In this document: positions 32,417 to 54,238 of the stretch, piece after piece | Numbering within the stretch: position 1 is the first letter of the stretch | How the letters are laid out: the number at the start of each line of letters is the position of its first letter | Assembly: GCA_903897605.1 (NCBI GenBank) | Contig: CAIUCH010000016.1 | Location: 1 to 64,000 of the forward strand | Direction: 5' to 3' | Source of the DNA: an uncultured Alphaproteobacteria bacterium | GTDB lineage: Bacteria; Pseudomonadota; Alphaproteobacteria; Micropepsales; Micropepsaceae | Length of the DNA: 64,000 bases | The notes under the pieces: model-generated | The model's input: the letters and a program-made list of their open reading frames with translations, nothing else | Told to the model about the DNA's origin: nothing | The model's database searches: none | Program-made: the position numbers and the translations under genes

Positions 32417-32455
32417 AAAAGACCTTTCAATCAAGCCTTTATCGCTTATTTCGCA

Positions 32456-32470
32456 TTAGCGGAGTGTTAA
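32456..32470. promoter_or_regulatory. Near-consensus CtrA-like site (TTAG-N7-TTAA)
   Basis: Seven of eight conserved bases of TTAA-N7-TTAA, in the 95-bp divergent gap between the GNAT-like gene and the acyl-carrier-like ORF. Weak evidence. Confidence 0.25.
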
Positions 32471-32511
32471 AGTTCCAGCACTAGTCTGGAGTGGCATTTC
32501 CAGGTTCCGCG

Positions 32512-32664: not shown

Positions 32665-33994
32665 TTTGCGCAGGCGCCTCAAGCCGGGCGGTGTCCTCAG
32701 CGCCGGGAACGCCGTTATCGGGTTTGACGCACTGATCGCCGGCAATCCGCTTTCGGTCGAACTGGCGACGCTGGACGGCGCCCATGTGCTGCTGCGAACC
32801 CGCAGCCAATTCTCTGCCGCGATGGCGCTGATCGCGTTGGACGGCATCGCGGCCCGGATCGTGATCGCACCGCCCGATCTGAAGGAGGAATTTCTCAAGG
32901 ATGTGATCGGGCGCGCACAAATCGACACGTTGGTGACGGATGGCGACCCCCTCGAAGGATTGCGGACCGTGACGATCTTCGCCGCACCGAAGCCCGTGAT
33001 GGAGATTCCCGCGACGCGCGCAAGCGAGTGGGTCATGTTCACATCCGGCACCACCGGTGCTCCCAAGATGGTGGGGCATACGCTGGAAGCGCTCACCGGC
33101 GCGATCAAGCCGACAAACGATGCCGTCGTTTGGGGTACCTTTTATGACATTCGGCGCTATGGCGGCTTGCAGATATTTCTGCGCGCGGCGTTGGGCGGCG
33201 CCTCGCTGATATTGTCCGACCCGGAGGAATCCGCCGCCGATTTTCTGGACCGGCTGGGCCGGGGCGGTGTCACGCATTTGACCGGTACGCCATCTCATTG
33301 GCGGCGCGCCCTGATGAGCCCGGCTATGCACCGGGTCGCGCCGCGCTATGTCAGGCTGTCGGGCGAAATCGCCGACCAGGCCGTGCTGGACAGCCTGAAG
33401 GCGAAATTCCCCGCCGCCGCGATCGGCCATGCCTATGCCTCGACCGAGGCGGGCGTAGGCTTTGAAGTGACCGATGGGTTGGAAGGCTTTCCGGCATCCT
33501 TTGTCGGGGGCCCGGGGCCGGTGGAGATGCGGGTGGTGGACGGCTGTCTGCAGATTCGCTCATCGCGTACGGCGACGCGCTTTGTCGGCAGTTCCGACAA
33601 GCTCGATGACAATGGCTTTGTGGATACGGGCGATATGGTCGAACTGCGGGACAATGGCGGCGATCCGGCAAAAGCGCGTTATTATTTCGCGGGACGGCGC
33701 GGCGGCATCATCAATGTCGGCGGCCTCAAGATTCATCCGGAGGAAGTCGAAGCGGTGATCAATCGCCATCCCGCCGTGCGGCTGTCGCGGGTTTCCGGCC
33801 GCCGCAGCCCGATTACCGGCGCCATCGTCGTCGCCGAAGTGGTGCTGGAGGATGGCGGGGACCATGATACGATCCGCACGGAGATCCTGCGCGATTGCCG
33901 CGCCGTCCTGAAGCCATTCCAGGTGCCTGCCATGTTGCGGATAGTCCCGAAGCTGGAATTGAGCGCGGGCGGAAAGTTGCTGCGCCATGCGTAA
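32645..33994 (+). CDS. AMP-dependent acyl ligase (adenylate-forming enzyme)
   Basis: A 449-residue ANL-superfamily enzyme, short for the family. Visible core motifs: P-loop WVMFTSGTTGAPKMV, YASTEAG (A5), FVDTGDMVEL (A7), GRRGGIINVGGLKIHPEEVE (A8), and a C-terminal Lys in LSAGGKLLRHA (A10). It would activate a carboxylate as acyl-AMP and pass it to CoA or a carrier thiol. Its start lies within the upstream carrier-like ORF and its end overlaps the SDR by 8 bp, so the three genes form a tight operon. Confidence 0.82.
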   Translation: MTTPLPDLRRRLKPGGVLSAGNAVIGFDALIAGNPLSVELATLDGAHVLLRTRSQFSAAMALIALDGIAARIVIAPPDLKEEFLKDVIGRAQIDTLVTDGDPLEGLRTVTIFAAPKPVMEIPATRASEWVMFTSGTTGAPKMVGHTLEALTGAIKPTNDAVVWGTFYDIRRYGGLQIFLRAALGGASLILSDPEESAADFLDRLGRGGVTHLTGTPSHWRRALMSPAMHRVAPRYVRLSGEIADQAVLDSLKAKFPAAAIGHAYASTEAGVGFEVTDGLEGFPASFVGGPGPVEMRVVDGCLQIRSSRTATRFVGSSDKLDDNGFVDTGDMVELRDNGGDPAKARYYFAGRRGGIINVGGLKIHPEEVEAVINRHPAVRLSRVSGRRSPITGAIVVAEVVLEDGGDHDTIRTEILRDCRAVLKPFQVPAMLRIVPKLELSAGGKLLRHA

Positions 33995-34706
33995 CGTGCT
34001 GGTCACCGGCGGTTCGCGCGGCATCGGATTGGCGGTGGCAGAAAAACTTGTCGGTGATGGCTTTCGCGTTTTTGCCCTTGCGCGCAAGAATACCGACGCG
34101 TTGAGCGCGGCGATGGCGGCGTCACCCGCGCTGCATTTCGTTCCATTCGATTTGTCGAACCTGGAAGCCATACCGGATCTGGTGCGGGGCCTGAAGGCCG
34201 AACATGGTCCGCTTTATGGCCTGGTCAACAACGCGGCGCTGGGCAGCGAAGGCCTGCTCTCCAACATGCACAATTCCGATATCGAGGCGCTGGTGCGTCT
34301 CAACATCCTGTCCCCGATCCTGCTGACCAAATTTGCCGTGCGGGGGATGATGACGGCGGGCGGGGGCCGCATCGTCACCATGGCTTCGATCATCGGCTTC
34401 ACCGGCTATAGCGGCCTCAGCGTCTATGGCGCGACCAAGGCTTCGATGCTGGGCTTTACCCGCAGCCTGGCGCGCGAAGTGGGCCGGCTGGGCATTACCG
34501 TGAACGCCGTCGCGCCTGGCTTCATCGCCACGGACATGACGGCCGGAATGACCGGGGAGCAGACGGCCAGGATCGCATCGCGCAGCGCGCTGAAGCGCCT
34601 GGCCGGCGCCGACGACGTCGCCAATGCGGTGAGTTATCTGATGAGCGATGGCGCCGGCAATGTCACAGGCACCACCATCACCGTGGATGCCGGCAATACC
34701 GCCTAG
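33987..34706 (+). CDS. SDR-family reductase, FabG-like
   Basis: A 239-residue classical short-chain dehydrogenase. The cofactor motif is TGGSRGIG at residues 7-14, with NNAA for the adenine-ring pocket, the catalytic Ser in VTMASIIG, and YxxxK in SVYGATKASMLG, followed by NAVAPGFIATDM. The pattern is closest to 3-oxoacyl-ACP reductases. In the operon with a ligase and a carrier-like ORF it probably reduces an activated beta-keto acyl intermediate, by inference. Confidence 0.82.
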   Translation: MRNVLVTGGSRGIGLAVAEKLVGDGFRVFALARKNTDALSAAMAASPALHFVPFDLSNLEAIPDLVRGLKAEHGPLYGLVNNAALGSEGLLSNMHNSDIEALVRLNILSPILLTKFAVRGMMTAGGGRIVTMASIIGFTGYSGLSVYGATKASMLGFTRSLAREVGRLGITVNAVAPGFIATDMTAGMTGEQTARIASRSALKRLAGADDVANAVSYLMSDGAGNVTGTTITVDAGNTA

Positions 34707-34740
34707 GGATTCGGCGCAGGGCACATGCGGCGCGGCCAGA

Positions 34741-36489
34741 TTAAAGACGGACCAGACCTGCGCTGACCCGTTTGTAAAGCGCCGAATCAAGCGCCACATA
34801 GCCGTTGCCGAGATCGGCATAGAGGGGATCCGTGATTTTCGCCGGGTCAAATCCGTCTAAGGCAAGATCGCTCTTCTTCTGCTTGAAGGTTTCGGTAATG
34901 GCGAGGGATTTTACCAGGCGCAGGAAAATCGGTCTGGCATAGTCGGGAAGGCGTGACTTCAGGTGCGCTTTCAAACCGGCAAGATCGAATCTGGCATCGG
35001 TTTCCAGCGCCGCCATACCGGCCTTGCCGTCCGCGCCCGTGACCGCGACGCCATACACATTCGCGGCCAGAATTCCGGGATAAGCGGACAGCGCGGCAGC
35101 CACTTCGGTGGTGGCGACATTTTCGCCCTTCCAGCGAAACGTATCGCCGAGCCGGTCCACGAAATAGAAAAAACCTTGCGCATCCTGACGCATCAGGTCC
35201 CCGGTGCGCACAAAGGCATCACCGGCCTCAAAGACATTTCGCAGGATTTTTTTCGCCGTGGCGGTCTCATCGCTATAGCCCTCGAAACGCGCCGCACCGC
35301 CCGCGATCCGTCCGATCGCCTCACCCGCTTCGCCGGTTGAAACACGCTGGCAGAAGCCGCCGGCATCGCGCAATGGCTCGCCATGGCTGTCGCGACGGAC
35401 CAATTCCACGCCGAAGCGGTGGCGGAGGAAGGCGGGAATGCGGCCGATCGCGCCCGGCTTTCCTTCCGCGTTATAGAGCGAGAAATTGCCTTCCGTGGCG
35501 GCATAGAATTCCAGAATCCTGGGGATCTGGAAGCGTTGCTGGAACGGTTCCCAGATTTCTCCGGATAGGCCGTTGCCGCAAGCCAGGCGCAATCCGTGTG
35601 AACGCGGCTGGGCTTCGGACTTCAAGAGATAGCGGCACAGCTCGCCGATATACTGAAAAATCGTTGCGCCGCTTTCGGCGACATCGTCCCAAAAGGCGCG
35701 GGCGGAGAATTTTTCGCGCAGAATGACCGCGCCGCCTTTCAGCAAGACCGCGCCCGAGGCGACCACGCCGCCCACCGAATGATACATCGGCAGGCAATTA
35801 TAGAGTCGGTCGTCCGGCTGTGCGTTCAAAAGGCCCGCGAACCAGTGGGTCCACATCATCACGCGGTGATGGCTGACATAGGCCGCCTTGGGCAATCCCG
35901 TGGTGCCGGAGGTGTAAATCATTAGCGCGGCGTCGCTGAGCGTGACATCGGCTTCTTCCGCTGCCTCAAACGGTGCGTCCGGCTGATCCGCAATGGATTG
36001 CACGAAGGCGGGGTCGTAACACCAGATATGGGCGACGGCTGGAATATCCGCCAAGGATGGCGCCAGTTCCTCCGTCACGATGATGTGTTTGGGACCAGCG
36101 ATAGTCAGGCAATGCGCCAGTGCCGGACCGCCCAGATTGGTATTGATCAGCGCCACGATGCCGCCGATGCGGGTGACGCCGAGCCAGATGGCGAGATATT
36201 CGGCGCGATTGGGCATCAGCAACGCCACCACGTCGCCCTTCTTGATGCCTTGGGCCAGCCCCCAGCGCGCATAGCGGCGCACGCGTGCGGCCAATTGCGC
36301 ATGGCTGAAATTCTCCGGCGTGCTGAAGAGCGCCGGTGCGTCGCCGTAAACTTCCGCCAACATGTCGACCACACGCGGAAAGACCCGCTGCGGTTGCAGG
36401 TCGATCTTCGCGGTCATTTCGAGCGCGTTCAGCCACGCCCGGGAGGCGGAGCGATCATTCGCAGGCGGGGAAAGCGGAGTGGCGGTCAT
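34741..36489 (-). CDS. Long/very-long-chain acyl-CoA synthetase (FadD6/FATP type)
   Basis: A 582-residue ANL enzyme of the long-chain-acyl-CoA synthetase/FATP subgroup. Motifs: MIYTSGTTGLPKAAYVSHHR (P-loop), FYAATEGNFSLYN (A5, the FATP-type version), FVRTGDLMRQDAQGFFYFVDRLGDTFRWKGENVATTEV (A7-A8 region) and the C-terminal ITETFKQKKSDL with the catalytic Lys. It activates fatty or other lipophilic acids to acyl-CoA. It converges on the SDR operon with a 34-bp gap and starts 138 bp from divergent metY. Confidence 0.87.
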   Translation of the reverse strand: MTATPLSPPANDRSASRAWLNALEMTAKIDLQPQRVFPRVVDMLAEVYGDAPALFSTPENFSHAQLAARVRRYARWGLAQGIKKGDVVALLMPNRAEYLAIWLGVTRIGGIVALINTNLGGPALAHCLTIAGPKHIIVTEELAPSLADIPAVAHIWCYDPAFVQSIADQPDAPFEAAEEADVTLSDAALMIYTSGTTGLPKAAYVSHHRVMMWTHWFAGLLNAQPDDRLYNCLPMYHSVGGVVASGAVLLKGGAVILREKFSARAFWDDVAESGATIFQYIGELCRYLLKSEAQPRSHGLRLACGNGLSGEIWEPFQQRFQIPRILEFYAATEGNFSLYNAEGKPGAIGRIPAFLRHRFGVELVRRDSHGEPLRDAGGFCQRVSTGEAGEAIGRIAGGAARFEGYSDETATAKKILRNVFEAGDAFVRTGDLMRQDAQGFFYFVDRLGDTFRWKGENVATTEVAAALSAYPGILAANVYGVAVTGADGKAGMAALETDARFDLAGLKAHLKSRLPDYARPIFLRLVKSLAITETFKQKKSDLALDGFDPAKITDPLYADLGNGYVALDSALYKRVSAGLVRL

Positions 36490-39048: not shown

Positions 39049-40203
39049 ATGATGACGATGCTATTGACTGGGGCAGGCTGGTTTTTTGCCGCGCTCGCGC
39101 TTTTCGGCGCGGGCTATGCCTTGGCGGCTGCCTTTCTGGCCGGCCGGTTCATGCAGGGCGAAGGCCCGGGGGGATCCGCTTGTCCGCCGGTAACCATCCT
39201 CAAGCCCCTGTATCTGGGCGAGCCGGGCCTGTCCGAGAATCTGGAGAGTTTCTTCGCGCAGGATTACCCCGGCGCCATCCAGATCGTGTTCGGCGTCCAT
39301 GACGAAAGCGATCCCGCCATCGCGGTGGTCGAAGCGCTGCAACAGCGCTATCCGCATCTGGACAGCGTGATCGTCGCCGATGGCGCGCTGCATGGCTCCA
39401 ACGCCAAGGTTTCCAATCTGATCAATATGCTGCCGGCGGCGCGGCACGACATATTGGTGCTGTCCGACAGTGACATCACCGTGTCGCGGCGCTGGCTGCG
39501 CCATGTCACGGACGCTTTGGCCGGTCCCGGCGTGGGCCTGGTGACCTGTCTTTACACTGGCGAAGTGGTGCAAAATCAAAGCCGCATCTGGTCAACCTTG
39601 TCGGCCATGGGCACGTCTTATGACTTTCTGCCCAATGTGGTTCTCGGCACCAGTCTCGGTCTGGCCGAGCCCTGCATGGGATCGACCATCGCGCTGACGC
39701 GGCCCATGCTGGACGAAATCGGCGGCTTCATGGCATTCGCGGACTATCTCGCCGATGATTATGAGATCGGCCGCGCCGTGCGCGCCCGGGGCCATGTCCT
39801 GGCGATGCCCGCGATGGGGGTTAGGCATACCGCGACCGAGGCCAGTGCCGGCGAATTGTTCCGTCACGAATTGCGCTGGACCCGCACCATCCGCACCGTC
39901 AATCCGCTGGGTCATCTGGGCAGTGTGGTCACGTTCGGGTTCCCGATTGCGCTGATTTCCGCCCTGTTGCTGGGTTTTTCCTGGCCGAGCCTTGTCGTCC
40001 TGGGACTGACTCTGGCGGCGCGGCTGTTCCTCAAGCGCCGTATTGATGGTATTTTCGGGACCTATGCGGGTCCGTTCTGGCTTTTGCCGGTGCGGGACCT
40101 TTTAAGTTTCGCAGTGTTCGTGGCGTCGCAATTCGGCGAGACCGTCCATTGGCGGGGAAGCCGCTTTGCGGTCGAACCCAGCGGCGCCCTGTCCCAATCC
40201 TGA
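39049..40203 (+). CDS. hpnI: Hopanoid glycosyltransferase HpnI
   Basis: Family role: adds N-acetylglucosamine to bacteriohopanetetrol at the inner membrane. 384 residues: N-terminal membrane helix (about 5-27), a GT-2 catalytic domain with VTILKPLYLGEPGLSENLESF, DSD in LVLSDSDITVSRRW, and the late HELRWTRTIR motif, then C-terminal membrane helices. It is in the HpnI/ceramide-glucosyltransferase-like group. ATG 39049 is chosen because an earlier in-frame reading (38836) lies in the metA-like gene; ATG 39052 is nearly equivalent. It is the first gene of the hopanoid operon. Confidence 0.92.
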   Translation: MMTMLLTGAGWFFAALALFGAGYALAAAFLAGRFMQGEGPGGSACPPVTILKPLYLGEPGLSENLESFFAQDYPGAIQIVFGVHDESDPAIAVVEALQQRYPHLDSVIVADGALHGSNAKVSNLINMLPAARHDILVLSDSDITVSRRWLRHVTDALAGPGVGLVTCLYTGEVVQNQSRIWSTLSAMGTSYDFLPNVVLGTSLGLAEPCMGSTIALTRPMLDEIGGFMAFADYLADDYEIGRAVRARGHVLAMPAMGVRHTATEASAGELFRHELRWTRTIRTVNPLGHLGSVVTFGFPIALISALLLGFSWPSLVVLGLTLAARLFLKRRIDGIFGTYAGPFWLLPVRDLLSFAVFVASQFGETVHWRGSRFAVEPSGALSQS

Positions 40204-40217
40204 AGGTATTGAAGTCC

Positions 40218-41648
40218 ATGGCCATGAAATCGCTTTTTCTCCAGGCGCCGTCCTTCGACGGTTATGACGGCGGCGCCGGTGCGCGCTACCAGATGAAGCG
40301 GGAAGTGAAGTCTTTCTGGTTTCCCACCTGGCTGGCCCAGGCCGCGGCGATGGTGCCGGGTTCGCGCCTGATCGACGCCCCGCCGCACCGCCTGTCCTTC
40401 AAGGACATCGAGGAAGACGTGAAGGCGCATGAGTTGATCGTCATTCATACCTCCACCCCCAGCTTCAAGTCCGACGTGCGCACGGCGGACATGGTCCGGG
40501 CCCTCAATCCGACCGCCAAGATCGGCTTCATCGGCGCCAAGGTCGCTGTCGAACCGGAGGAAAGCCTGAATGGGGCACCATCGATCGATTTCGTCTGCCG
40601 CAACGAATACGAATTCACCATCCAGGAATTGGCGAACGGCGCCGACTGGGCGAGCATCAAGGGCCTCAGCTATCGCGATGCCGACGGCAAGATCGTCCAC
40701 AATCCGGAACGCGAAATCCTGATGGACATGGACCAGTTGCCGTCGGTGCTGCCGATGTACAAGCAGCTCAAGGTCGAGAATTATTTCGGCGGCTATCTGA
40801 TGCACCCCTATATGTCCTGGTACACGGGCCGGGGCTGCAAATCGCGTTGCACCTTCTGCCTTTGGCCTCAGACCATCGGTGGCCACAAATACCGCTACAA
40901 GTCGATCGCCAAGGTGGTCGAAGAAGTGGAATATGTGCAAAAGAAATTCCCCCAGATCCGGGAAATCTTCTTCGACGATGATACCTTGACCGACGATCAT
41001 GCCCGCGTCGAGGAACTGGCGCGCGCGCTTGGCCCCTTGGGCATCACTTGGTCCTGCAACGCCAAAGCAAACGTACCGCGCAAGACCCTGGAAGTGATGA
41101 AGGCCAACGGTCTGCGCCTGCTTCTGGTCGGTTATGAATCCGGCAATCAGAAGATCCTGCACAACATCAAGAAGGGTCTTCTGGTCGAAGTCGCCAAGCG
41201 CTTCTCCAAGGATTGCCACGAATTGGGCATCATCGTGCACGGGACTTTTATCCTGGGCCTGCCGGGCGAGACCCGCGAGACCATCCAGGAAACCCTGGCT
41301 TTCGCCAAGGAAGTCAATCCGCGCACCTTGCAGGTGTCGCTGGCCGCGCCCTATCCGGGCACCTTTCTCTACAAACAGGCCAAGGAGAATGGCTGGTTCG
41401 CGTCGGATGTGGATCTCTTGACCGATGATGGCACCCAGATCGCGCCGCTCAATTATCCGCATCTGGGCCATACCGAGATTTTCGAGTCGGTGGAGACCTT
41501 CTACAAGAAGTTCTATTTCCGTCCCTCCAAGATCGCGGAAATCCTGGGCGAGATGCTGACGTCGCGCGACATGCTGGTGCGGCGCTTGCGCGAAGGCGTG
41601 GAATTCTTCCAGTTCCTTCGGAACCGCGAAGACATGATCGTCTCCTGA
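40218..41648 (+). CDS. hpnJ: B12-binding radical SAM protein HpnJ
   Basis: Family role: ring contraction of BHT-glucosamine to the cyclitol ether head group. 476 residues with an N-terminal cobalamin-binding-like domain (about 1-150) and a radical SAM core whose cluster motif GRGCKSRCTFC places Cys207, Cys211 and Cys214 in CxxxCxxC. LLLVGYESGNQKIL and HGTFILGLPGET are typical of this B12-radical SAM class. The start could be ATG 40218 or 40224; MKSLFLQAPSFDGYDGGAG is the conserved start. It is 14 bp after hpnI. Confidence 0.95.
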   Translation: MAMKSLFLQAPSFDGYDGGAGARYQMKREVKSFWFPTWLAQAAAMVPGSRLIDAPPHRLSFKDIEEDVKAHELIVIHTSTPSFKSDVRTADMVRALNPTAKIGFIGAKVAVEPEESLNGAPSIDFVCRNEYEFTIQELANGADWASIKGLSYRDADGKIVHNPEREILMDMDQLPSVLPMYKQLKVENYFGGYLMHPYMSWYTGRGCKSRCTFCLWPQTIGGHKYRYKSIAKVVEEVEYVQKKFPQIREIFFDDDTLTDDHARVEELARALGPLGITWSCNAKANVPRKTLEVMKANGLRLLLVGYESGNQKILHNIKKGLLVEVAKRFSKDCHELGIIVHGTFILGLPGETRETIQETLAFAKEVNPRTLQVSLAAPYPGTFLYKQAKENGWFASDVDLLTDDGTQIAPLNYPHLGHTEIFESVETFYKKFYFRPSKIAEILGEMLTSRDMLVRRLREGVEFFQFLRNREDMIVS

Positions 41649-41650
41649 CC

Positions 41651-41695
41651 GCATGACCCGCAAAAGTGGGCACCGGTTTTGCGACAAGGTCGTGC
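41651..41695. repeat. Alphaproteobacterial palindromic intergenic repeat between hpnJ and hpnK
   Basis: An imperfect 45-bp palindrome: GCATGACC / GGTCGTGC outer arms and CGCAAAA / TTTTGCG inner arms around GTGGGCACCGG. It closely resembles the widespread Rhizobiales element that reads GCATGATCCCGAAAAGTGG and so on. It fills almost the whole 54-bp gap inside the operon. Confidence 0.75.
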
Positions 41696-41702
41696 GGCAA
41701 TA

Positions 41703-42545
41703 ATGCGAAAGCTGATCCTGACGGCGGACGATTTCGGCGCCGCGGTCGAAGTCAATGAGGCGGTCGAGCGCGCCCATCGCCAGGGCGTGCTCACCGCCGC
41801 CAGCCTGATGGTATCGGGCGTGGCGGTCCGTGACGCCGTGGCGCGGGCCCGGGCCATGCCATCCTTGCGCGTCGGACTGCATCTGGTGCTGGTGGACGGA
41901 AAGCCGATCCTGCCGGCCAGCGCGGTTCCCGATCTGGTGGATAGGCAGGGAAATTTCCGCACCGATATGGCGCGTGCCGGCGCCGCTATGTTCTTCCTGC
42001 CCAGGGTGCGCGCCCAGCTCGCGGCTGAGATTGAGGCGCAGTTCGAGGCGTTCGCTGCCACCGGCCTGAAACTGGATCACGTCAACGCCCACAAGCATTT
42101 TCACCTGCATCCCACCATCGCGGCCCTGATGGTAAAGACGGGACGGGCGCATCGCGTCCGGGGTGCGCGGGTTCCGCTGGAGCCGCAGGCGATCTTGCAG
42201 CGAATTGAACGGCACCGCGCGCCGGCGGTTGTGGGGCTCACCACGCCCTTCGCCCGCGCCTTGCGGGCCCGGTTCCGCCGCGCCGGCATCGCCGCGCCCG
42301 ACCAGGTTTTCGGTCTGGCCTGGTCCGGCGCCATGACGCCGCCACGGCTAAAGGGTCTGATCGAACATCTGCCGGAAGGGCTTTCGGAGATTTATCTCCA
42401 TCCCGCCACCGGCGCCTATCCCGGCGCCGCTCCCGGTTACGCCTATGCCGAGGAACTGAAAGCCCTCACGGATCCGGCCATGCCCGCGCTGATTGCCGCG
42501 GGCGATATTCGCCTTGGCGGCTTTTGCGACTTTCCGGTACAATAG
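41703..42545 (+). CDS. hpnK: Hopanoid-associated deacetylase HpnK
   Basis: Family role: removes the acetyl group from N-acetylglucosaminyl-BHT to give BHT-glucosamine. A 280-residue YdjC/ChbG-type carbohydrate deacetylase: LILTADDFGAAVEVNEAV with metal-binding Asp residues at the N-terminus, GLHLVLVDG, and NAHKHFHLHP with clustered metal-binding His. ATG 41703 gives the standard MRKLILTADDFG start; a reading from 41679 would begin inside the palindromic repeat. Confidence 0.93.
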   Translation: MRKLILTADDFGAAVEVNEAVERAHRQGVLTAASLMVSGVAVRDAVARARAMPSLRVGLHLVLVDGKPILPASAVPDLVDRQGNFRTDMARAGAAMFFLPRVRAQLAAEIEAQFEAFAATGLKLDHVNAHKHFHLHPTIAALMVKTGRAHRVRGARVPLEPQAILQRIERHRAPAVVGLTTPFARALRARFRRAGIAAPDQVFGLAWSGAMTPPRLKGLIEHLPEGLSEIYLHPATGAYPGAAPGYAYAEELKALTDPAMPALIAAGDIRLGGFCDFPVQ

Positions 42546-42602: not shown

Positions 42603-43514
42603 ATGAGCAGCCCGGCTTTCGCCATTCCGCCTGATCTTTCCCGCGATACCGGCATGTGGCCGGGCGATGGACCGATCCGTTACGGCACCGACGAACATAA
42701 GCGCCTGTTCTGCAAGACGCTGCTGGACACGTTCGATCCCTATCGCCCCGCCGTGCTGGACTGGCCCAAACTGGGCGAAGAGGCCGAGAAGCGGATCACC
42801 GCGCTGCCGATCTGGGACATTGCGGTGCAGACCGAGAATCGGGCCGGCCTGAATGTCTGCACCTATGCCGAGGGCGTACCGGACCCCTTGCTGCGCAAGG
42901 CGATCGAATTGAACGGCTTCGAGGAGCGCCGCCATCGCCATGTGCTGGCCAATCTGGTGGAAGCCTATGGCATCAAGCTGGCGCCGGAACCAGTTTATGA
43001 AAAACCCAAGAATCCGGAATGGGCCTTCATGGTCACCGGTTACAGCGAATGCATCGATTCCTTCTTTGCCTTCGGGTTGTTCGCGGCCGCCAAGGACACC
43101 GGATATTTTCCGCCCGAACTGGTCGATACGTTCGAGCCGGTGGTGAAGGAAGAGGGACGCCATATCCTGTTCTTCGTGAATTGGATGGCCTGGCATCGCC
43201 GCAACATGCCGTGGTGGCGCCGGCCCTATTTCGAACTGAAGGTCGTGGCGGTGTGGCTGTTCCTGATCTGGGAACGGCTGGGCATCGCGTCCGACGTCTC
43301 GAACGGACAGCAGGACAATAATTTCACCGTCACCGGCGCTGGCCAGCTGGGCGCCGACATCAATGTCGGCGAATTGATCGCCATTTGCGTTTCCGAGAAT
43401 GACCGGCGGTTGGGTATCTACGACCAGCGCCTCAAGCGTCCACGTTTTGTGCCATTCATGGCGCGACTAGCGCTGAAATTCATCGGACCGAAGAAACAGA
43501 AAGTTGCCGCATGA
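42603..43514 (+). CDS. Ferritin-like diiron protein, first of a tandem pair in the hopanoid operon
   Basis: A 303-residue mostly helical protein. A full carboxylate-bridged diiron ligand set can be read: Glu78 (TENR), Glu108/His111 (EERRH), Glu149 (GYSEC) and Glu184/His187 (EEGRH). Spacings of 30, 41 and 35 residues between the Glu ligands are identical in the next gene's product. Hydrophobic stretches near 212-228 suggest membrane association. The function is unknown; the fold includes oxygenases, desaturase-like enzymes and hydroxylases. It sits 57 bp after hpnK and overlaps its paralogue by 4 bp. Not one of the named Hpn families as far as I know. Confidence 0.75.
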   Translation: MSSPAFAIPPDLSRDTGMWPGDGPIRYGTDEHKRLFCKTLLDTFDPYRPAVLDWPKLGEEAEKRITALPIWDIAVQTENRAGLNVCTYAEGVPDPLLRKAIELNGFEERRHRHVLANLVEAYGIKLAPEPVYEKPKNPEWAFMVTGYSECIDSFFAFGLFAAAKDTGYFPPELVDTFEPVVKEEGRHILFFVNWMAWHRRNMPWWRRPYFELKVVAVWLFLIWERLGIASDVSNGQQDNNFTVTGAGQLGADINVGELIAICVSENDRRLGIYDQRLKRPRFVPFMARLALKFIGPKKQKVAA

Positions 43515-44359
43515 AAATCGGATCGCTCGAGCATCGCGACACTTTCTGCCGCCATTTCATGCAGACCTATACGGACTATGATCCGGATACCTTGCCTTGG
43601 CCGGACCTGGACGAGGCGGCGCTGACGCGCCTCAAATCCGTGCCCTTCTGGGAAGAGGTCTTCTATACCGAGCGCCGTGCGGGTGCGATCGTCGCCGCCT
43701 TCACCGAGACCGTGACCGATCCGGTCATGAAAGAAGCCATCGCGCTGCAGGGCAAGGAAGAGGCCCGTCACGCCAAGCTGATCCGGGTGATGATCGAGAA
43801 ATACGGCATCGATGCCGCCGAGCGTCCGCTGGAAGATGTCAGCGACAATGTCGAAACCCGCTTCAAGGATTTCGGTTTCGGCGAATGCATGGATTCCTTT
43901 CTGGGTTTCGGCGTCTTCAAGATCGCCATGCAGTCCGAATTTCTGCCCAAGGAAATGTTCCAGATCTTCGAGACCCTGATGTATGAGGAGACGCGCCATA
44001 TCGTGTTCTTCGTCAACTGGATGGCCTATGCCCAGGCGCAAAAAGGGTGGCTGGCATCGGCCATCCTGCCGCTGACGTCGTTCCGCTACTACATGCGCGC
44101 GTTGGGCCGCATGATCGGCACCGCCAAGCGCGGCAAGGATCTCAATGACGGCAAGGAATTCACTGCCACCCAGGCATCGGTCTTCCTGGACGGCTTTACC
44201 TTCCGGCGCTTCCTGGAAGACTGTTATTCCGAGAATCGCCGCCGCATGGGCGCCTTCGACGCGGAATTGCTGCGTCCCAGCTTTCTGCCGCAACTTGCCG
44301 AAACGGCGCTGGGCGCGATGCGTCTCTGGAGCTTTCGCGCCAAGCCGCTGCCGGCCTGA
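43511..44359 (+). CDS. Ferritin-like diiron protein, second of a tandem pair in the hopanoid operon
   Basis: 282 residues, paralogous to the preceding protein. Ligands: Glu54 (TERR), Glu84/His87 (EEARH), Glu125 (FGECMDSF) and Glu160/His163 (EETRH), followed by IVFFVNWMAYAQ, which matches the partner's ILFFVNWMAWHR. The start overlaps the upstream stop (ATGA), so the two are probably made in equal amounts and may form a heterodimer. Candidate for an O2-dependent step in hopanoid side-chain or ring modification; this rests on context only. hpnL follows 21 bp later. Confidence 0.75.
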   Translation: MKIGSLEHRDTFCRHFMQTYTDYDPDTLPWPDLDEAALTRLKSVPFWEEVFYTERRAGAIVAAFTETVTDPVMKEAIALQGKEEARHAKLIRVMIEKYGIDAAERPLEDVSDNVETRFKDFGFGECMDSFLGFGVFKIAMQSEFLPKEMFQIFETLMYEETRHIVFFVNWMAYAQAQKGWLASAILPLTSFRYYMRALGRMIGTAKRGKDLNDGKEFTATQASVFLDGFTFRRFLEDCYSENRRRMGAFDAELLRPSFLPQLAETALGAMRLWSFRAKPLPA

Positions 44360-44380
44360 TTTTTCGTTGGGAAGATGGTC

Positions 44381-45418
44381 ATGAAATGGGGCGTCGCCAT
44401 CGCGCTGCTCGCGGGTCTGGTCGCGGCGGTCTATCTGATCTGGGCGATCGGTTTCGGTGCGGTGATGGCTGCGATCGAGCGCGCCGGCGTCGGTGGCCTC
44501 GCCATTCTTTGCCTTTATGCCCTTGTCGTGTTCGTCGTTCTGGCGGCTGCCTGGATGTGCCTTCTGCCGCGATCCGAACACCACGACGCCAAGGATTTCT
44601 ACCTTGCCCGGCTGGTGCGCGATTCCATCGCCGAGATTTCACCCTTCTCGCCGGTCGGCGGCATGGTCGCGGCGGCGCGGTTGATGATCCTGCATGGCAT
44701 GAATGCGGGTTATGCGGCGGCGTCGGTTGCCGCCGACGCCACCACCGAAGCCATGGCGCAGGTGGCGTTCCTGGCGTTCGGCATTGCGCTCGGCGTGGCG
44801 CATTTTCGGCACCTGGCCAGCGCCGGACCGCTAACCGAGGCGATGGTCGCGACCTTGCTGCTGGCAGTGCCGGGGATCGCCGCGCTCATCCTGCTGCAGA
44901 AGAAAGGCGCCAATTTTGCGGAGCGGATCGCGGGGCGGTTTTTCCCACAGGTCAGGAGCGGAACCACTTTTCGCGACGCCATCTATGAACTTTACGATTC
45001 GCCCAAGCGGCTTGCCAGTTCCGCGGCGCTGCATCTGCTCGCCTGGATCGGATCCGGCGGTGGCACCTTCATAGCGTTTCGGCTGATTGGCGGCCAAGTC
45101 AGCCTGACCGACGCGCTAGCGCTGGAAGCCCTGTTATGCACCTTGCGTTCCATCGCCGCATTCGTTCCCGCCGCGTTGGGCGTGCAGGAGGCGGGCTATG
45201 CCATGTTGGCGCCGCTGTTCGGACTGCCCGCCGAGATGGGACTGGCGGTGTCGCTGCTCAAACGGGCGCGCGAGATCGTGATCGGGATACCATCCTTGAT
45301 CTATTGGCAAAGCGTCGAGGGGCGAGCCGCGTTGCGTATGGCGCAGGAACCGGTCCCTTGGACCGGCGAAAGCGGCGAACTTGGCCGGGCGGCCGGCGCG
45401 GACCTTCATCATGAGTGA
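44381..45418 (+). CDS. hpnL: Hopanoid-associated inner-membrane protein HpnL
   Basis: About 345 residues with around seven or eight transmembrane helices, of the lysylphosphatidylglycerol synthase/UPF0104 membrane-domain family. Characteristic stretches are ISPFSPVGGMVAAARL and FVPAALGVQEAGYAML. Its role in hopanoid metabolism or transport is not established. ATG 44381 is preferred to 44375 because GGGAAG lies six bases before it. It overlaps hpnA by 8 bp. Confidence 0.88.
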   Translation: MKWGVAIALLAGLVAAVYLIWAIGFGAVMAAIERAGVGGLAILCLYALVVFVVLAAAWMCLLPRSEHHDAKDFYLARLVRDSIAEISPFSPVGGMVAAARLMILHGMNAGYAAASVAADATTEAMAQVAFLAFGIALGVAHFRHLASAGPLTEAMVATLLLAVPGIAALILLQKKGANFAERIAGRFFPQVRSGTTFRDAIYELYDSPKRLASSAALHLLAWIGSGGGTFIAFRLIGGQVSLTDALALEALLCTLRSIAAFVPAALGVQEAGYAMLAPLFGLPAEMGLAVSLLKRAREIVIGIPSLIYWQSVEGRAALRMAQEPVPWTGESGELGRAAGADLHHE

Positions 45419-46403
45419 TACGGTTCTGGTGACAGGCGCATCCGGCTTTGTCGGCGCCGCCGTCGCCCGCGCGGCCTTGACGCGGGGCTTTCGGGTCAAG
45501 GTGTTGATGCGGGCCACTGCGTCGCACGCCAATATCGAAGGATTGGATGTGGAAGCGGTGACCGGCGATATGCGCGATGCCGGATCCATGACGGCGGCGA
45601 TGCAGGGCGCGCGTTATCTCTTCCATGTCGCGGCGGATTACCGGCTCTGGGCGCGCGATGCCTCCGAGATTGCCCGCAACAATCTGGAAGGCGCCAAAGC
45701 GACGATGGCTGCCGCGCTTCGCGCCGGGGTCGAACGCGTGATCTATACCTCCTCGGTTGCGGCCCTGAAGCCCGGCACTGGGGAGGCGGTCGATGAATCC
45801 TCCCGTCACACGCCGCAAAGCGTGATCGGCGCCTATAAGCTGAGCAAACTTCTGGCGGAACGCGAAGTCGAACGCATGATCGCGGATGAGAAGCTGCCCG
45901 CGGTGATCGTGGCGCCGTCCACGCCGATCGGTCCGCGTGACATCAAGCCGACGCCCACCGGACGAATCATCGTCGAAGCGGCGGCAGGGCGGATGCCGGC
46001 CTATGTCGATACCGGACTTAACCTGGTGCATGTCGATGACGTGGCCGAAGGCCATTTCCTGGCGCTGGAACGGGGCAGGATCGGTGAAAATTATATCCTG
46101 GGCGGCACCGACGTGACCCTGGCGCAGATGCTGGCGGATATCGCGGCATTGGCGGGACGCCGGGCGCCGCGTGTGAAACTGCCACGCGGGCCATTGTTTC
46201 CGCTGGCTTTTGGTGCCGAAGCCGTTGCGCGGTTCACCGGGAAGGAGCCGTTCCTTACCGCCGACGCGCTGCGCATGTCGCGCTATCGGATGTATTTCTC
46301 TTCCGCCAAGGCCGCGCGGGAACTGGGTTATGCGGCACGGCCCTACCGGGACGGCTTGAAGGATGCCCATGCCTGGTTCGCGGCCAACGGGTATCTTTCA
46401 TGA
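45411..46403 (+). CDS. hpnA: Hopanoid-associated NAD-dependent epimerase/dehydratase HpnA
   Basis: A 330-residue extended SDR: the TGASGFVG nucleotide motif at residues 8-15, a VIYTSSVAAL active-site Ser region and YKLSK (YxxxK). It is the classical HpnA dihydroflavonol-reductase-like protein of hopanoid loci; its substrate is unproven, probably a sugar or side-chain intermediate. ATG 45411 overlaps the end of hpnL; an upstream in-frame ATG at 45381 lies inside hpnL and is less likely. Confidence 0.92.
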   Translation: MSDTVLVTGASGFVGAAVARAALTRGFRVKVLMRATASHANIEGLDVEAVTGDMRDAGSMTAAMQGARYLFHVAADYRLWARDASEIARNNLEGAKATMAAALRAGVERVIYTSSVAALKPGTGEAVDESSRHTPQSVIGAYKLSKLLAEREVERMIADEKLPAVIVAPSTPIGPRDIKPTPTGRIIVEAAAGRMPAYVDTGLNLVHVDDVAEGHFLALERGRIGENYILGGTDVTLAQMLADIAALAGRRAPRVKLPRGPLFPLAFGAEAVARFTGKEPFLTADALRMSRYRMYFSSAKAARELGYAARPYRDGLKDAHAWFAANGYLS

Positions 46404-47536
46404 TCGCCGGCATCGTGTTTGGATTCCTGCCCCTTGCCATCTGGCTTTATCTGCTGCTGGCGCGGCGTGGTTTTTGGCTTCTGCGCGAACGGGACACCTT
46501 GCCGGTGCGCCAGCCGCCGATCTGGCCATCGGTCGTCGCGGTGGTGCCGGCCCGCAACGAAGCCGATGTGATCCAGCAAAGCATCGGCAGTCTTCTGGCG
46601 CAGGACTATCCAGGAGATTTCCGGATCATTCTGGTGGACGACCAGTCGGAAGACGGCACCGGCGCGTTGGCGCGGGCATTGAACAATGATCGCCTTGTCA
46701 TATTGGCTGGCGAAGCGCGGCCCGCGGGTTGGACGGGAAAACTCTGGGCGATGCGGCAAGGCACCGATCACGCCGCCTTGTCCGCGCCGGAATTTCTTTG
46801 GTTCACCGATGCGGACATCGCCCACGCCCCCGACAATCTGCGCAACCTGGTTGCGCGCGCGCAGGAGGGACGTAAAGTTCTGGTTTCGTTGATGGCGCGG
46901 CTGTCCTGCCGCACGACCGCAGAGCATTTTCTCATTCCGGCCTTCGTATTCTTTTTCGATATGGTGTTTCCCTTCGGTGCATCCAACGATCCAAAAAGTC
47001 AGGTTGCGGCGGCGGCCGGCGGCTGCATGCTGGCACGGCGCGAAACGCTGGAAGCCTCAGGTGGCATCGATGCCATCCGGCACAACATCATCGACGATTG
47101 TGCCCTGGCCCGCGCGATGAAGAAGCAGGGCCCGATCTGGCTGGGCCTTACCGATCGCGCCGTCAGCCTGCGGCCCTATGAGCACGTGGCCGATATTCGC
47201 AAAATGGTCTCGCGTTCGGCCTATGCCCAGCTGGATTATTCGCCGCTCCTGCTGTTGGGCACGCTTCTGGGCCTTTTCATTGTCTATATTGCGCCCGTCC
47301 TGGGGGCATTGTTCGCCATGTATTATGTGCAGCTTGCGGCCTATCTCGCTTGGGCGATCATGGCCGCGATGTTCCAGCCGATCTTGCGCTTCTACCGGTT
47401 GTCGCCCTTGTGGGGTATCGCGCTGCCGTTGATTGGCGCCTTTTATGCCGCCTTCACGCTCGATTCGGCGATCCAGCACTGGTCGGGAAAAGGCGGCATG
47501 TGGAAAGGCCGCGCCCAGGCAGGGGAACGGGCATGA
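46400..47536 (+). CDS. hpnB: Hopanoid-associated glycosyltransferase HpnB
   Basis: 378 residues: N-terminal membrane helix, GT-2 domain with VVAVVPARNEADVIQQSI, ILVDDQSEDGTG (Asp-Asp) and WFTDADIAHA (DxD), then a C-terminal block of hydrophobic helices (about 275-365). HpnB is conserved in hopanoid loci; the exact acceptor is not known. The start overlaps hpnA (ATGA) and the end overlaps hpnC (ATGA). Confidence 0.92.
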   Translation: MIAGIVFGFLPLAIWLYLLLARRGFWLLRERDTLPVRQPPIWPSVVAVVPARNEADVIQQSIGSLLAQDYPGDFRIILVDDQSEDGTGALARALNNDRLVILAGEARPAGWTGKLWAMRQGTDHAALSAPEFLWFTDADIAHAPDNLRNLVARAQEGRKVLVSLMARLSCRTTAEHFLIPAFVFFFDMVFPFGASNDPKSQVAAAAGGCMLARRETLEASGGIDAIRHNIIDDCALARAMKKQGPIWLGLTDRAVSLRPYEHVADIRKMVSRSAYAQLDYSPLLLLGTLLGLFIVYIAPVLGALFAMYYVQLAAYLAWAIMAAMFQPILRFYRLSPLWGIALPLIGAFYAAFTLDSAIQHWSGKGGMWKGRAQAGERA

Positions 47537-50523: not shown

Positions 50524-50532
50524 TTGCGGGCG

Positions 50533-52470
50533 ATGAACCAGCTCGCGCCCGCCGACCTTGCCGACGTGGAAGGCGTCATTCGTGCCGCCACCGCCGCAAT
50601 TTTGGACCAGCAGCGGCCGGTTGGGCATTGGGTTTATGAGCTGGAAGCCGACGCCACCATCCCGGCGGAATATGTCCTGCTTGTCCATTACCTGGCGGAG
50701 ACCCCCAATCTGGAACTGGAGCGCAAGATCGGCGTCTATCTGCGCCGCATCCAAGGCGCCCATGGGGGCTGGCCGCTCTACCATGAAGGCGCATTCGATA
50801 TTTCCGCGACGGTGAAGGCCTATTTCGCGCTCAAGATGATCGGCGACGAAATCGAGGCGCCGCACATGGCGCGGGCGCGCGCGGCGATCCATGCGCGGGG
50901 CGGCGCCATCAAGGCCAATGTTTTCACCCGCATTCTGCTGGCGCTGTATGGCGAGACCGCCTGGGCGAATATCCCAACCGTGCCGGTGGAATTGATCCTG
51001 CTGCCCCGCTGGTTCCCCATCCATCTGTCCAAGATGAGCTATTGGGCGCGCACCGTGATCGTGCCGTTGCTGGTGCTGGCGGCGAAGCGTCCCATGGCGC
51101 GCAATCCGCGAGGTGTGCATATCCCCGAACTGTTCGTGCCCGGCGTGCCCGCGGCCAGCCCGCGCGCGCCGCATCAAAGCGCGGGCTGGTCGGCATTCTT
51201 CGCGGCATTGGACTGGATCTTGAAACGGTTCGAACCCTTCTGGCCGAAGGGATTGCGGGCGCGTGCGATCGAGAAATGCCGCGCCTGGACCACCGAGCGC
51301 CTGAATGGCGAAGACGGACTGGGCGCGATCTATCCCGCCATGGCCAACAGCGTGATGATGTACGACACGCTGGGTCATGCGCCATCGCATCCCGACCGCG
51401 CCATCGCGCGAAGGTCCGTCGAGAAGCTGCTGGTGATCAAAGACCATGAAGCCTATTGCCAGCCCTGTGTCTCGCCGGTCTGGGATACCGCCCTGGTGGC
51501 GCATGCCCTGATGGAAACAAAAGACGCGCGCGCCGAAGCAGCCGCCGTACGCGGATTGGAATGGCTGGCGCCGCTGCAGGTGCTGGATGTCAAAGGCGAT
51601 TGGGCGGACGAAAAGCCGGATGTGCGGCCGGGAGGCTGGGCCTTCCAGTATCGCAATGATTACTATCCCGACCTCGACGATACGGCGGTGGTGGTGATGG
51701 CGATGGATCGTGCCGCCAAGGCAGGGATCGCCCCCGACTATAAAGAGGCCATTGCGCGAGGGGCGGAATGGGTTGACGGGCTGCAGTGCCGGGGTGGCGG
51801 CTGGGGTGCCTTCGACGCCGACAATTCCTATTATTACCTCAACAATATTCCCTTCGCCGATCACGGCGCGCTGCTGGATCCGCCCACCGAGGATGTTTCA
51901 GGCCGTTGCGTGGGCATGATCGCGCAGCTTGGCGGCGACGAGGTGCGGCTGGATGCGGGTATCGCCTATCTGCGCAAAACCCAGAGGGCGGACGGCTCCT
52001 GGTTCGGCCGCTGGGGGGTGAATTACATTTATGGCACCTGGTCGGCGCTGGCGGGATTGAACGCGGCGGGTCTTGGGGCGCAGGACCGCACCATGCGCCG
52101 TGCCGCCGGCTGGCTGGCGGCGATTCAGAACATCGATGGCGGCTGGGGTGAGAGTTGCGACAGCTACAAGCTGGATTACAAGGGCTATGAACCCGCGCCC
52201 TCAACCGCGTCCCAAACCGCCTGGGCGCTGCTGGGCTTGATGGCGGCGGGCGAGGTGGATCATCCGGCGGTGGCGCGGGGCGTCGCTTATCTGAAGCGCA
52301 CCCAGGATGCGGACGGATTATGGAGTCAGCTGCATTATACTGGCGGCGGCTTCCCGCGCGTCTTCTATCTCAATTATCACGGCTATCCGAAATTCTTCCC
52401 GCTCTGGGCGCTGGCGCGGTATCGCAATCTCAAGACGGGCAATTCGCGTCTCGTGGAGTATGGGCTTTGA
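50533..52470 (+). CDS. shc: Squalene-hopene cyclase
   Basis: Cyclises squalene to hopene/hopanol; a monotopic membrane enzyme, also called HpnF. 645 residues, normal length. The catalytic DxDD motif is Asp380-Leu-Asp-Asp383 in YPDLDDTAVVV. Several QW-type repeats are visible, such as GWAFQ, GGWGAFDADN, GSWFGRWGVNY, GGWGES and GLWSQLHYTG, and a late FYLNYHGYPKFFPLWALARY. ATG 50533 is preferred to TTG 50524. Its 3' end overlaps hpnG by 11 bp. Confidence 0.97.
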   Translation: MNQLAPADLADVEGVIRAATAAILDQQRPVGHWVYELEADATIPAEYVLLVHYLAETPNLELERKIGVYLRRIQGAHGGWPLYHEGAFDISATVKAYFALKMIGDEIEAPHMARARAAIHARGGAIKANVFTRILLALYGETAWANIPTVPVELILLPRWFPIHLSKMSYWARTVIVPLLVLAAKRPMARNPRGVHIPELFVPGVPAASPRAPHQSAGWSAFFAALDWILKRFEPFWPKGLRARAIEKCRAWTTERLNGEDGLGAIYPAMANSVMMYDTLGHAPSHPDRAIARRSVEKLLVIKDHEAYCQPCVSPVWDTALVAHALMETKDARAEAAAVRGLEWLAPLQVLDVKGDWADEKPDVRPGGWAFQYRNDYYPDLDDTAVVVMAMDRAAKAGIAPDYKEAIARGAEWVDGLQCRGGGWGAFDADNSYYYLNNIPFADHGALLDPPTEDVSGRCVGMIAQLGGDEVRLDAGIAYLRKTQRADGSWFGRWGVNYIYGTWSALAGLNAAGLGAQDRTMRRAAGWLAAIQNIDGGWGESCDSYKLDYKGYEPAPSTASQTAWALLGLMAAGEVDHPAVARGVAYLKRTQDADGLWSQLHYTGGGFPRVFYLNYHGYPKFFPLWALARYRNLKTGNSRLVEYGL

Positions 52471-53146
52471 GGGCAGCAAACAGGTGACCATTCTCGCCGT
52501 CACGGGTCTGAAACGCGAAGCCGAGATCGCGGGCGGCCTTGGCGTGGTGGCGGTGACGGGCGGCGGGGATGCCAAATCGCTGGCCGCCAAGCTCGATGCC
52601 CTGCATGGCGACATCCAAGGCGTGATCTCGATCGGATTGGGTGGCGGCTTATCGCCCCTGCTCAAGGTCGGCGAAGTGGTGATCGCCGATCAGATATTGT
52701 CGGGTCCGGAGCACTGGCGCTGCGACGAGCGCTGGCGGGTGGCGCTGGCCGCGAAGCTGCCTCAGGCCCATCAAGGACCGATCGCGGCCAGCGATGTGAT
52801 TCTGGAGGACGCGGAAGCCAAGGCGGCGCTTTATGCAAAGACGGGCGCGCTGGCGGTGGACATGGAAAGCGCCGTTGCCGCACGCTTCGCGGTCCTGCGG
52901 CATTTGCCTTTCGCGGCGCTGCGGGTGATTTCCGATGATGCCCGCCATGTGCTGCCGCACGCGGCGCTGGTGGCGATGAAGCCGGATGGCGGCATCGCCC
53001 TTGGCCGTGTGTTGGGCTCGCTATTGCGCCATCCGTTGCAAGTGCCGGCGCTGATCAGCACCGCACGCACCTCGAACAAGGCGTTTAAGGAATTACTCCG
53101 CTGCCGCGGCCTCTGTGGTGTCGGACTTGCCGGACTTGATCTGTGA
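52460..53146 (+). CDS. hpnG: Hopanoid phosphorylase HpnG
   Basis: Family role: releases adenine from adenosylhopane to yield (phospho)ribosylhopane. 228 residues, nucleoside-phosphorylase-like: GVISIGLGGGLSPLLKVGEVVIAD and AVDMESAVAARFA (Met-Glu-Ser for ribose binding) and RVISDDA. ATG 52460 lies within the shc 3' end; a longer frame from 52307 is out of keeping with the family. Its 3' end overlaps hpnH, on the other strand, by 54 bp. Confidence 0.92.
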   Translation: MGFEGSKQVTILAVTGLKREAEIAGGLGVVAVTGGGDAKSLAAKLDALHGDIQGVISIGLGGGLSPLLKVGEVVIADQILSGPEHWRCDERWRVALAAKLPQAHQGPIAASDVILEDAEAKAALYAKTGALAVDMESAVAARFAVLRHLPFAALRVISDDARHVLPHAALVAMKPDGGIALGRVLGSLLRHPLQVPALISTARTSNKAFKELLRCRGLCGVGLAGLDL

Positions 53147-54238
53147 TATCTTGTGCTCGACATGGCGGGAGAAGACGAATTCCGCCGGGCGCTGATGCGA
53201 CAGATCGATATCGGGCGCCATTGCGCCCTTGGTTTTGATGCCCCGCATCAGGATCGGCAGCATCTTGAGCGGATGCTTGATCGCATCGGTGGCGGCAGTG
53301 CCTTCGAAGCCGCAATGAACCATGCAGTTGGCGCATTTTTCGTATTTGCCGACGCCATATTTGTCCCAGTCGGTGCCTTCCATCAGTTCCTTGAAGGTCT
53401 TCACATAGCCTTCACCCAACAGGTAGCAAGGCTTCTGCCAGCCAAAGACCGTGAGCAGCGGCATCGACCAGGGCGTGCATTCATAGGTCTGATTGCCGGC
53501 CAGGAAATCCATGAACAAGGAGGAATTGGTGAAATCCCAATTCCTGCCGCCATTGCCGCGCGCCAGGATATCGCGGAACATGGTCTTGGTGCGCTCGCGA
53601 TTGAGGAAATGCTGCTGGTCGGGCGCGCGCTCATAGGCATAGCCCGGTGAAACGGTGATGCCGTCCAGGCCCATCTCCATCATCTCGTCGAAGAATTTGG
53701 CGGTGCGTTCCGGATCGGTGCCGTCGAACAAGGTGCAGTTGATCTGGGTGCGAAAGCCCTTGGCCTTGGCCAGCTTGATGGCGGCGATGGCCTTTTCATA
53801 GGTGCCGTCGAGGCAAACCGACTTGTCGTGCATCCCCTTGTCGCCGTCCAGATGGATCGACCAGGTGAAGTTGGGATCTGGCTTGTACTGGCCGATCTTC
53901 TTGGCCAGCAGCAGCGCGTTGGTGCACAGGATCACGAACTTGTCGCGTTCCAGGAAACCCTGGACGATCTTGGGCATGTCGCGATGAAGCAGGGGCTCGC
54001 CGCCGGCAATCGAAACAGCGGGGGCGCCGCATTCGTCGATCGCGTCCATGCATTGCTGGTACGACAGGCGCTGGTTCAGGATCTCATCGGGATAATCGAT
54101 CTTGCCGCAGCCGGCACAGGCCAGGTTGCAGCGAAACAGCGGCTCCAGCATCAGCACCAGCGGGTATTTGCCGCCGGACAGATGCTTCTTCACCACATAG
54201 GCACCGATCTTGGCGGCCTGTCTCAGCGGAAGTCCCAT
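53093..54238 (-). CDS. hpnH: Adenosyl-hopene transferase HpnH (radical SAM)
   Basis: Joins the 5'-deoxyadenosyl radical to hopene to form adenosylhopane, the first side-chain step. 381 residues. The cluster motif FRCNLACAGCGK gives Cys37, Cys41 and Cys44; AVSIAGGEPLLH is the SAM-binding GGE region. A C-terminal extension contains further Cys (EKCANCMVHCGFEG). It is one base after ispH on the same strand, so the two share a transcript that converges on the main hopanoid operon. Confidence 0.96.
   Translation of the reverse strand: MGLPLRQAAKIGAYVVKKHLSGGKYPLVLMLEPLFRCNLACAGCGKIDYPDEILNQRLSYQQCMDAIDECGAPAVSIAGGEPLLHRDMPKIVQGFLERDKFVILCTNALLLAKKIGQYKPDPNFTWSIHLDGDKGMHDKSVCLDGTYEKAIAAIKLAKAKGFRTQINCTLFDGTDPERTAKFFDEMMEMGLDGITVSPGYAYERAPDQQHFLNRERTKTMFRDILARGNGGRNWDFTNSSLFMDFLAGNQTYECTPWSMPLLTVFGWQKPCYLLGEGYVKTFKELMEGTDWDKYGVGKYEKCANCMVHCGFEGTAATDAIKHPLKMLPILMRGIKTKGAMAPDIDLSHQRPAEFVFSRHVEHKISQIKSGKSDTTEAAAAE

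Follow-up and report, generated by a model that had tools for sequence, protein, structure and literature searches.

Hopanoids are the bacterial counterparts of cholesterol and are widely used as molecular fossils. Among the diiron enzymes considered here, MiaE hydroxylates an isoprenoid side chain, AurF has one extra His ligand and the β-subunits of methane monooxygenase are metal-free. HpnX and sterol desaturase-type proteins, for which a role in hopanoid tailoring has also been proposed, are membrane His-box proteins of a superfamily other than that of the two proteins described below.

A survey from November 2025 (PMC12583986) describes as unknown which genes give rise to penta- and hexa-functionalised hopanoids, and it reports no candidates near the clusters. 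It names HpnX and sterol desaturase-family proteins as candidates for hopanoid desaturation (section 4.1.2.7) and places the general desaturase candidate outside the hpn cluster. Pentol and hexol hopanoids are recorded there in Rhodospirillales and Sphingomonadales, with hexol restricted to Rhodospirillales; Rhizomicrobium (Micropepsales) and Enterovirga (Hyphomicrobiales) are listed in Table 3 with 1% each, and in one species penta- and hexa-functionalised hopanoids reach 90% of the total.

Here we analysed a 64,000-nucleotide stretch of alphaproteobacterial DNA (the window) in which two adjacent paralogous genes, A and B, sit among hopanoid genes. A and B belong to a real, conserved diiron family that has no name and is tied to side-chain hopanoids, and they very probably encode hopanoid-tailoring oxidases of some kind, among which side-chain hydroxylases leading to pentol and hexol are the favoured reading. 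The family supplies a named candidate for the pentol and hexol genes, together with strains that bear it and strains that lack it. The role of A bears on whether pentol hopanoids imply molecular oxygen; if the assignment is true, sedimentary pentol and hexol hopanoids would record aerobic metabolism. A search of the open-licence PMC literature did not find the proposed role of A or B in print.

Locus, ligand set and predicted fold

Gene A (42603–43514; 303 residues) and gene B (43511–44359; 282 residues) lie on the plus strand between hpnK and hpnL, in agreement with the sequence-only reading. A starts 57 bp past hpnK, the two frames overlap by 4 bp (ATGA), and B ends 15 bp ahead of hpnL. The two products are 35% identical, and each carries a complete R2-like diiron ligand set (E78, E108, H111, E149, E184 and H187 in A; E54, E84, H87, E125, E160 and H163 in B) with equal spacings of 30, 41 and 35 residues between successive Glu ligands, at the positions first read from the sequence; the ‘six ligands’ of that reading correspond to four Glu and two His per protein once both His residues are counted.

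The surrounding genes were assigned with NCBIfam models, each scoring above cut-off. On the plus strand these are the glycosyltransferase hpnI (39049–40203; TIGR03472; open frame from 38836, inner start assumed), the radical SAM protein hpnJ of cyclitol-ether formation (40149–41648; TIGR03471), the deacetylase hpnK (41679–42545; TIGR03473), the membrane protein hpnL (44375–45418; TIGR03476), the epimerase-like hpnA (45429–46403; TIGR03466; open frame from 45381, inner start assumed), the glycosyltransferase-like hpnB (46400–47536; TIGR03469) and squalene-hopene cyclase (50524–52470; TIGR01507). The adenosyl-hopene transferase hpnH, which starts the C35 side chain, lies on the minus strand (53093–54238; TIGR03470). 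Because HpnH sits on the other strand, the single uninterrupted operon described earlier shrinks to a co-directional run from hpnI to hpnG. The accompanying claim that A and B are the only genes of the operon without an Hpn name is borne out in part, with HpnI, J, K, L, A, B and H named by NCBIfam and HpnC, D, E and G placed by gene order alone. The 3′ ends of hpnG (plus strand) and hpnH (minus strand) overlap tail to tail by 54 bases (53093–53146), and a convergent hpnG–hpnH pair with overlapping matches is also found in two other loci (L026 and L037).

Profile searches placed neither protein in a named family. A gave no Pfam or NCBIfam match at E ≤ 1, and B reached nothing above the Pfam or NCBIfam cut-offs, with sub-threshold matches to Ferritin_2 (E = 1.3e-4; 22.6 bits against a Pfam cut-off of 24.7, with none for A), rubrerythrin, AurF and, in NCBIfam, the diiron Mg-protoporphyrin cyclase PRK13654 (E = 0.006). 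The R2 family PF00268 matched neither A nor B at E ≤ 1, nor any of 62 family members at E ≤ 0.1, and single-sequence searches of the PDB with A and B returned nothing significant (best E = 0.45). Within the same 62 members, sub-threshold Ferritin_2 and rubrerythrin matches occurred in 7 and 8, respectively, and weak AurF matches below the Pfam cut-off in 11 (best E = 0.006).

Named prokaryote genomes were scanned with an alignment of the family (A1). At least 582 of at least 596 pattern-matching stretches encode relatives, indicating that the ligand pattern pointed out in the sequence-only reading is not due to chance. The 104 A-type and 25 B-type sequences compared all have the E, E/H, E, E/H ligands, with the exception of one H111Q substitution and one gap. 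Residue 115 of A (91 of B), four past the first His and presumably equivalent to the radical Tyr of R2, is Leu or Ile in 129 of 129 sequences and never Tyr. The residue four past the third Glu (E149+4 in A), presumably the site of the active-site Thr of methane monooxygenase, is Ser in 104/104 A-type and 24/25 B-type sequences. Because residue 115 is Leu or Ile and E149+4 is Ser, the sequences point to an oxygenase more than to a radical generator.

In a midpoint-rooted tree of the 129 sequences, the 25 B-types all fall into a single clade (support 1.0), whether they come from relatives of the window, from other families or from fusions. As B-types of such varied origin group together, the duplication that gave rise to A and B is old. 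Locus analysis covered the best 80 of the at least 582 relatives and is therefore biased to close relatives; in 79 of these 80 loci A has a frame with a start codon, and B is also present in 19 of the 79. Five of those 19 loci (L062, L068, L069, L074 and L077) encode A and B fused as one open frame of 580–581 residues. The pair had been read as a unit, an idea that gives way here to A alone as the widespread gene and a pairing that is not obligatory. Around the fused genes, an hpnL homologue is the only hpn gene in the segments, which extend at most 10 kb to either side.

The structure of A was predicted with AlphaFold2 from a 62-sequence alignment (pLDDT 85, pTM 0.86). In this model E78, E108/H111, E149 and E184/H187 fall on four long helices (70–90, 95–122, 138–166 and 178–201), and, judging from the helices that carry them and from the fold, the ligands of A and B would cluster in space. 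The best Foldseek matches were ribonucleotide reductase (RNR) R2 and the R2-like ligand-binding oxidase R2lox (best E = 0.0065, none below 0.001), and VIA aligned the model with 4m1h (Z = 15.3, 228 residues, r.m.s.d. 3.6) and with R2lox 6qrz (Z = 14.9, 213 residues, r.m.s.d. 3.6). Helical bundles can reach a VIA Z of about 13 through their common arrangement, so these matches are support and not proof of the fold; a low rank in the fold lists does not exclude a family. A natural A–B fusion, folded from an alignment without A rows, gave a model of lower quality (pLDDT 74.5, pTM 0.51) in which both halves match R2-type folds and the A–B interface is not reliable. The models of A and B show the R2-type arrangement of E/D, ExxH, E and ExxH on four helices, and the predicted R2 or R2-like oxidase fold is consistent with the oxygen-dependent diiron site first read from the sequence.

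A and B have in common with R2lox and RNR R2 the predicted fold and the four Glu and two His ligands. They differ in giving no significant sequence match, in lacking the Tyr at the radical position, in being found with hopanoid genes and in the distance from the second to the third Glu, 41 residues compared with what we take to be about 65 in R2lox and R2. Soluble methane monooxygenase and other multicomponent monooxygenases resemble A and B in ligand order and in their paired paralogues (8yrd matches the A half of the fusion with Z = 14.1), and presumably also in a hydroxyl residue four past the third Glu, where A and B have Ser; they differ in that both A and B keep their ligands. The tRNA hydroxylase MiaE (5ux1), which acts on a different substrate, gave a weak and non-significant match over the part that carries the ligands (E = 0.56 for profile A2 and 0.87 for B alone). 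For the N-oxygenases AurF and VlmB, the likeness lies in the weak AurF matches and in the VlmB fold, which matches the A half of the fusion (Z = 14.1).

Co-occurrence with hopanoid genes

If the family acts on hopanoids, its distribution should follow theirs. In a class-level sample of 240 genomes searched with B, A/B matches occurred in 16 genomes and squalene-hopene cyclase (Shc) in 67 (65 over cut-off), and 15 of the 16 A/B genomes have Shc (Fisher P = 2e-8). The remaining one, a 74% complete genome without a Shc match (G127), carries HpnH. A search for HpnH in 68 of the 240 genomes (the 67 with Shc and G127) found it in 67 of the 68, including all 16 with A/B. A phylum-level sample of 398 genomes contained A in 14 and HpnH in 49; all 14 A genomes carry HpnH (P = 3e-14; the class and phylum samples share six genomes, our four samples partly overlap and related genomes are not independent), and 35 of the 49 HpnH genomes lack A. 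Across the class and phylum samples, genomes with A/B come from 14 numbered families. Co-occurrence with hpnH (16/16 and 14/14) thus supports the hopanoid role proposed in the sequence-only reading.

The restriction to side-chain hopanoid producers, as marked by HpnH, extends to two family-level samples. We took the first family (f26) to be Acetobacteraceae because four of its members match plasmids of Kozakia, Aristophania, Roseomonas and Acidibrevibacterium in full. Its 120 genomes contain A/B in 65, HpnH in 105 and both in 63 (P = 7e-4), so that 42 of the 105 HpnH genomes have no A/B; the two exceptions among the 65 (G638 and G663) have A without HpnH. A second match that is B-like by score, with a tree or sequence check for G562 and G633 only, is present in 19 of the 65 A genomes, and in 17 of these 19 it lies no more than 255 bp from A. 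In another member of the family (G640), two A-type copies that score equally are separated by about 13 kb, probably a recent duplication. In the second family (f12), which includes Sphingomonas formosensis and Zymomonas, 119 genomes yielded A in 3 and HpnH in 13; all three A genomes have HpnH, and B accompanies A in none of them.

Gene neighbourhoods were compared in the best 80 loci, where A shares a segment with hpnI, hpnJ or hpnK in 62. At least one of hpnA–K or shc is present in 63 and an hpnL homologue in 64, and 11 loci have neither. Those without hpn or shc genes comprise nine Burkholderia or Trinickia loci, Caulobacter sp. S45 and one alphaproteobacterial metagenome-assembled genome. 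A common order is hpnI–hpnJ–hpnK–A–hpnL, seen in Sphingomonas and Novosphingobium; the nearest relatives of the window have hpnI–hpnJ–hpnK–A–B–hpnL, and in Dyella hpnL is followed by A. In the class sample, 5 of the 16 genomes have A/B and hpn genes no more than about 10 kb apart, and in four of the others the contigs end close to A/B. In the phylum sample, A is near hpn genes in 4 of the 13 surroundings fetched (G578 left out; one contig of 3.5 kb). Taken literally, homologues are found mostly away from hpn genes, the very outcome that the sequence-only reading had named as counting against it, although they occur almost solely in genomes with hpnH.

We also searched the neighbourhoods for a redox partner. 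No reductase or effector gene was found among the named genes around the pair in the window, where part of the open frames was scanned. For the unlinked copies, no common partner emerged from the 14 loci compared, in which the ten neighbours scanned belong to unrelated families, one of them resembling NADPH-dependent FMN reductases (PF03358; L105, 8725–9372); gene calling gave no neighbours in one of these loci (L031) and missed A in two (L036 and L142). The reductase-like gene precedes A by about 0.6 kb, in the same orientation, in nine loci including L105 (eight from Burkholderia plus G543; 94–100% identity). This gene is absent beside A in Burkholderia cenocepacia (L120), in Trinickia (L117 and L145) and in the window. 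Its product could feed electrons to A, which makes it a lead and not a general partner.

Lipids of A-bearing organisms and the proposed reaction

Pentol is made by all three A-bearing taxa whose lipids could be looked up. In B. cenocepacia, a large replicon of a strain other than those used for lipid work encodes A (61% identity); PMC8560942 reports a feature annotated as bacteriohopanepentol (BHpentol) cyclitol ether in strain K56-2, an unsaturated form in three strains and Δ6 forms that are putatively annotated. S. formosensis CC-Nfb-2 (L066), with 23% pentol plus hexol and 1% unsaturated hopanoids in Table 3 of PMC12583986, has A and no B in its locus and a single match in its genome (G737). 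Kozakia baliensis, with 29% pentol plus hexol and 56% unsaturated hopanoids in the same table, has A and an intact B (G633). We assigned this genome by a 100% match over 20,000 bases to a plasmid of that species from palm brown sugar, and the strain in the survey is also a palm brown sugar isolate (PMC12583986). In the Kozakia B gene, which is outside the set of 25 B-types, TGA precedes the start codon of an intact reading frame, and Ala replaces the conserved Ser four past the third Glu.

Matching of lipids to genes comprises these three positives, one at species level only, and one negative, Zymomonas mobilis ATCC 10988, which has HpnH, lacks A and, to our knowledge, makes no pentol. A further genome with HpnH and no A (G261) is perhaps a Methylobacterium, judging from short matches below 80%; PMC12583986 gives 0% pentol for Methylobacterium. 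Because hexol is confined to Rhodospirillales and S. formosensis lacks B, we connect A with pentol and, less firmly, B with hexol. Hydroxylation, desaturation and head-group oxidation had all been offered in the sequence-only reading, and hydroxylation fits the lipid data best.

In our reading, A and B would be soluble nonheme diiron oxygenases of the R2-like type that tailor hopanoids. In the proposed mechanism, four Glu and two His would ligate a diiron site that in its reduced state would activate O2, and one oxygen atom would be inserted into an unactivated C–H bond of the side chain, presumably beside the tetrol. A would act on C-31 of bacteriohopanetetrol, or of its cyclitol ether, to give the pentol; B, where present, may act on C-30 to give the hexol or may serve as a partner subunit of A. 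We consider the case for A as the enzyme that hydroxylates the side chain to pentol to be evenly balanced, and the assignment of B as the hexol enzyme to be doubtful. The complete scheme, a new diiron oxygenase family that converts tetrol successively to pentol at C-31 (A) and hexol at C-30 (B), is put forward tentatively, as a possibility.

Several observations run counter to hydroxylation. BHpentol cyclitol ether is present in Rhodopila strain LVNP (Table 2 of PMC8590665), and that study is about anoxic cultures, with the strain also grown in air; pentol in Rhodopila conflicts with an O2-dependent enzyme unless the sample had air or another route exists. In family f12, A occurs in 3 of the 13 HpnH genomes, whereas 6 of the 8 BHPD-producing Sphingomonadales in Table 3 of PMC12583986 make pentols, the strains differing between the two counts; the Sphingomonas family may have a second pentol route. 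Ring unsaturation also accompanies A in Kozakia and Burkholderia. Also on this side are the Ala of Kozakia B, the two Acetobacteraceae genomes with A and no HpnH, and the lack of a redox partner common to the 14 loci compared.

Alternative roles

The fused frames of five loci, the 4-bp overlap and the closeness of the B-like match to A in most Acetobacteraceae genomes that have one all favour a single heterodimeric enzyme, with pentol as its only product and B as an accessory paralogue of the kind seen in multicomponent monooxygenases. We regard this arrangement as unlikely: B retains the full ligand set in 25 of 25 sequences, unlike the β-subunits of methane monooxygenase, A occurs mostly without B (B in 19 of 79 best loci, 19 of 65 Acetobacteraceae genomes and 0 of 3 in family f12), and the interface of the fusion model is unreliable.

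Acyl-ACP desaturases share the ligand type of A and B, and the same diiron chemistry could instead form a C–C double bond, making A and B the missing desaturases of the hopanoid ring (Δ6 or Δ11). PMC12583986 describes the desaturase genes, too, as unknown, and both the highly unsaturated K. baliensis and B. cenocepacia, with its putative Δ6 forms, carry A. The pentol-rich S. formosensis, however, has A and almost no unsaturated hopanoids, and, within the Acetobacteraceae, Rhodopila (0% unsaturated) and Acidocella (3%) contain pentol without much unsaturation in the same survey, a comparison of lipids alone and not of genomes. Desaturation by A and B is quite unlikely, though B by itself could be a desaturase.

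The position of A/B directly after hpnK in many loci suggests a third role, in which A/B would work with HpnI, HpnJ and HpnK to form the cyclitol ether or to oxidise the head group in another way. Among Shc genomes, A/B are commoner with HpnJ (8/19) than without it (7/48; P = 0.02), yet the seven genomes in the latter group show that HpnJ is not required, and 11 HpnJ genomes have no A/B. Zymomonas is a cyclitol-ether producer and lacks A, and we consider a head-group role very unlikely.

That A and B are generic ferritin- or rubrerythrin-like iron or peroxide proteins, in the operon by chance, is scarcely credible and was rejected because in all four samples they occur almost exclusively in genomes with HpnH; the sub-threshold Ferritin_2 and rubrerythrin matches of B and of a few family members favour it, and the nearest folds, R2 and R2lox, do not. 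Opening of ribosylhopane to bacteriohopanetetrol (BHT) was likewise set aside because A is missing from most HpnH genomes of the phylum sample (35/49).

Elsewhere in the window, the genes that follow one another at positions 29877–36489 do not resemble the hopanoid set. Named by sight only, they comprise an acetolactate-synthase-like TPP enzyme, a possible acyltransferase, an AMP-ligase, a FabG-like short-chain dehydrogenase/reductase and a second acyl-CoA synthetase, and the run may represent a small acyl or amide pathway.
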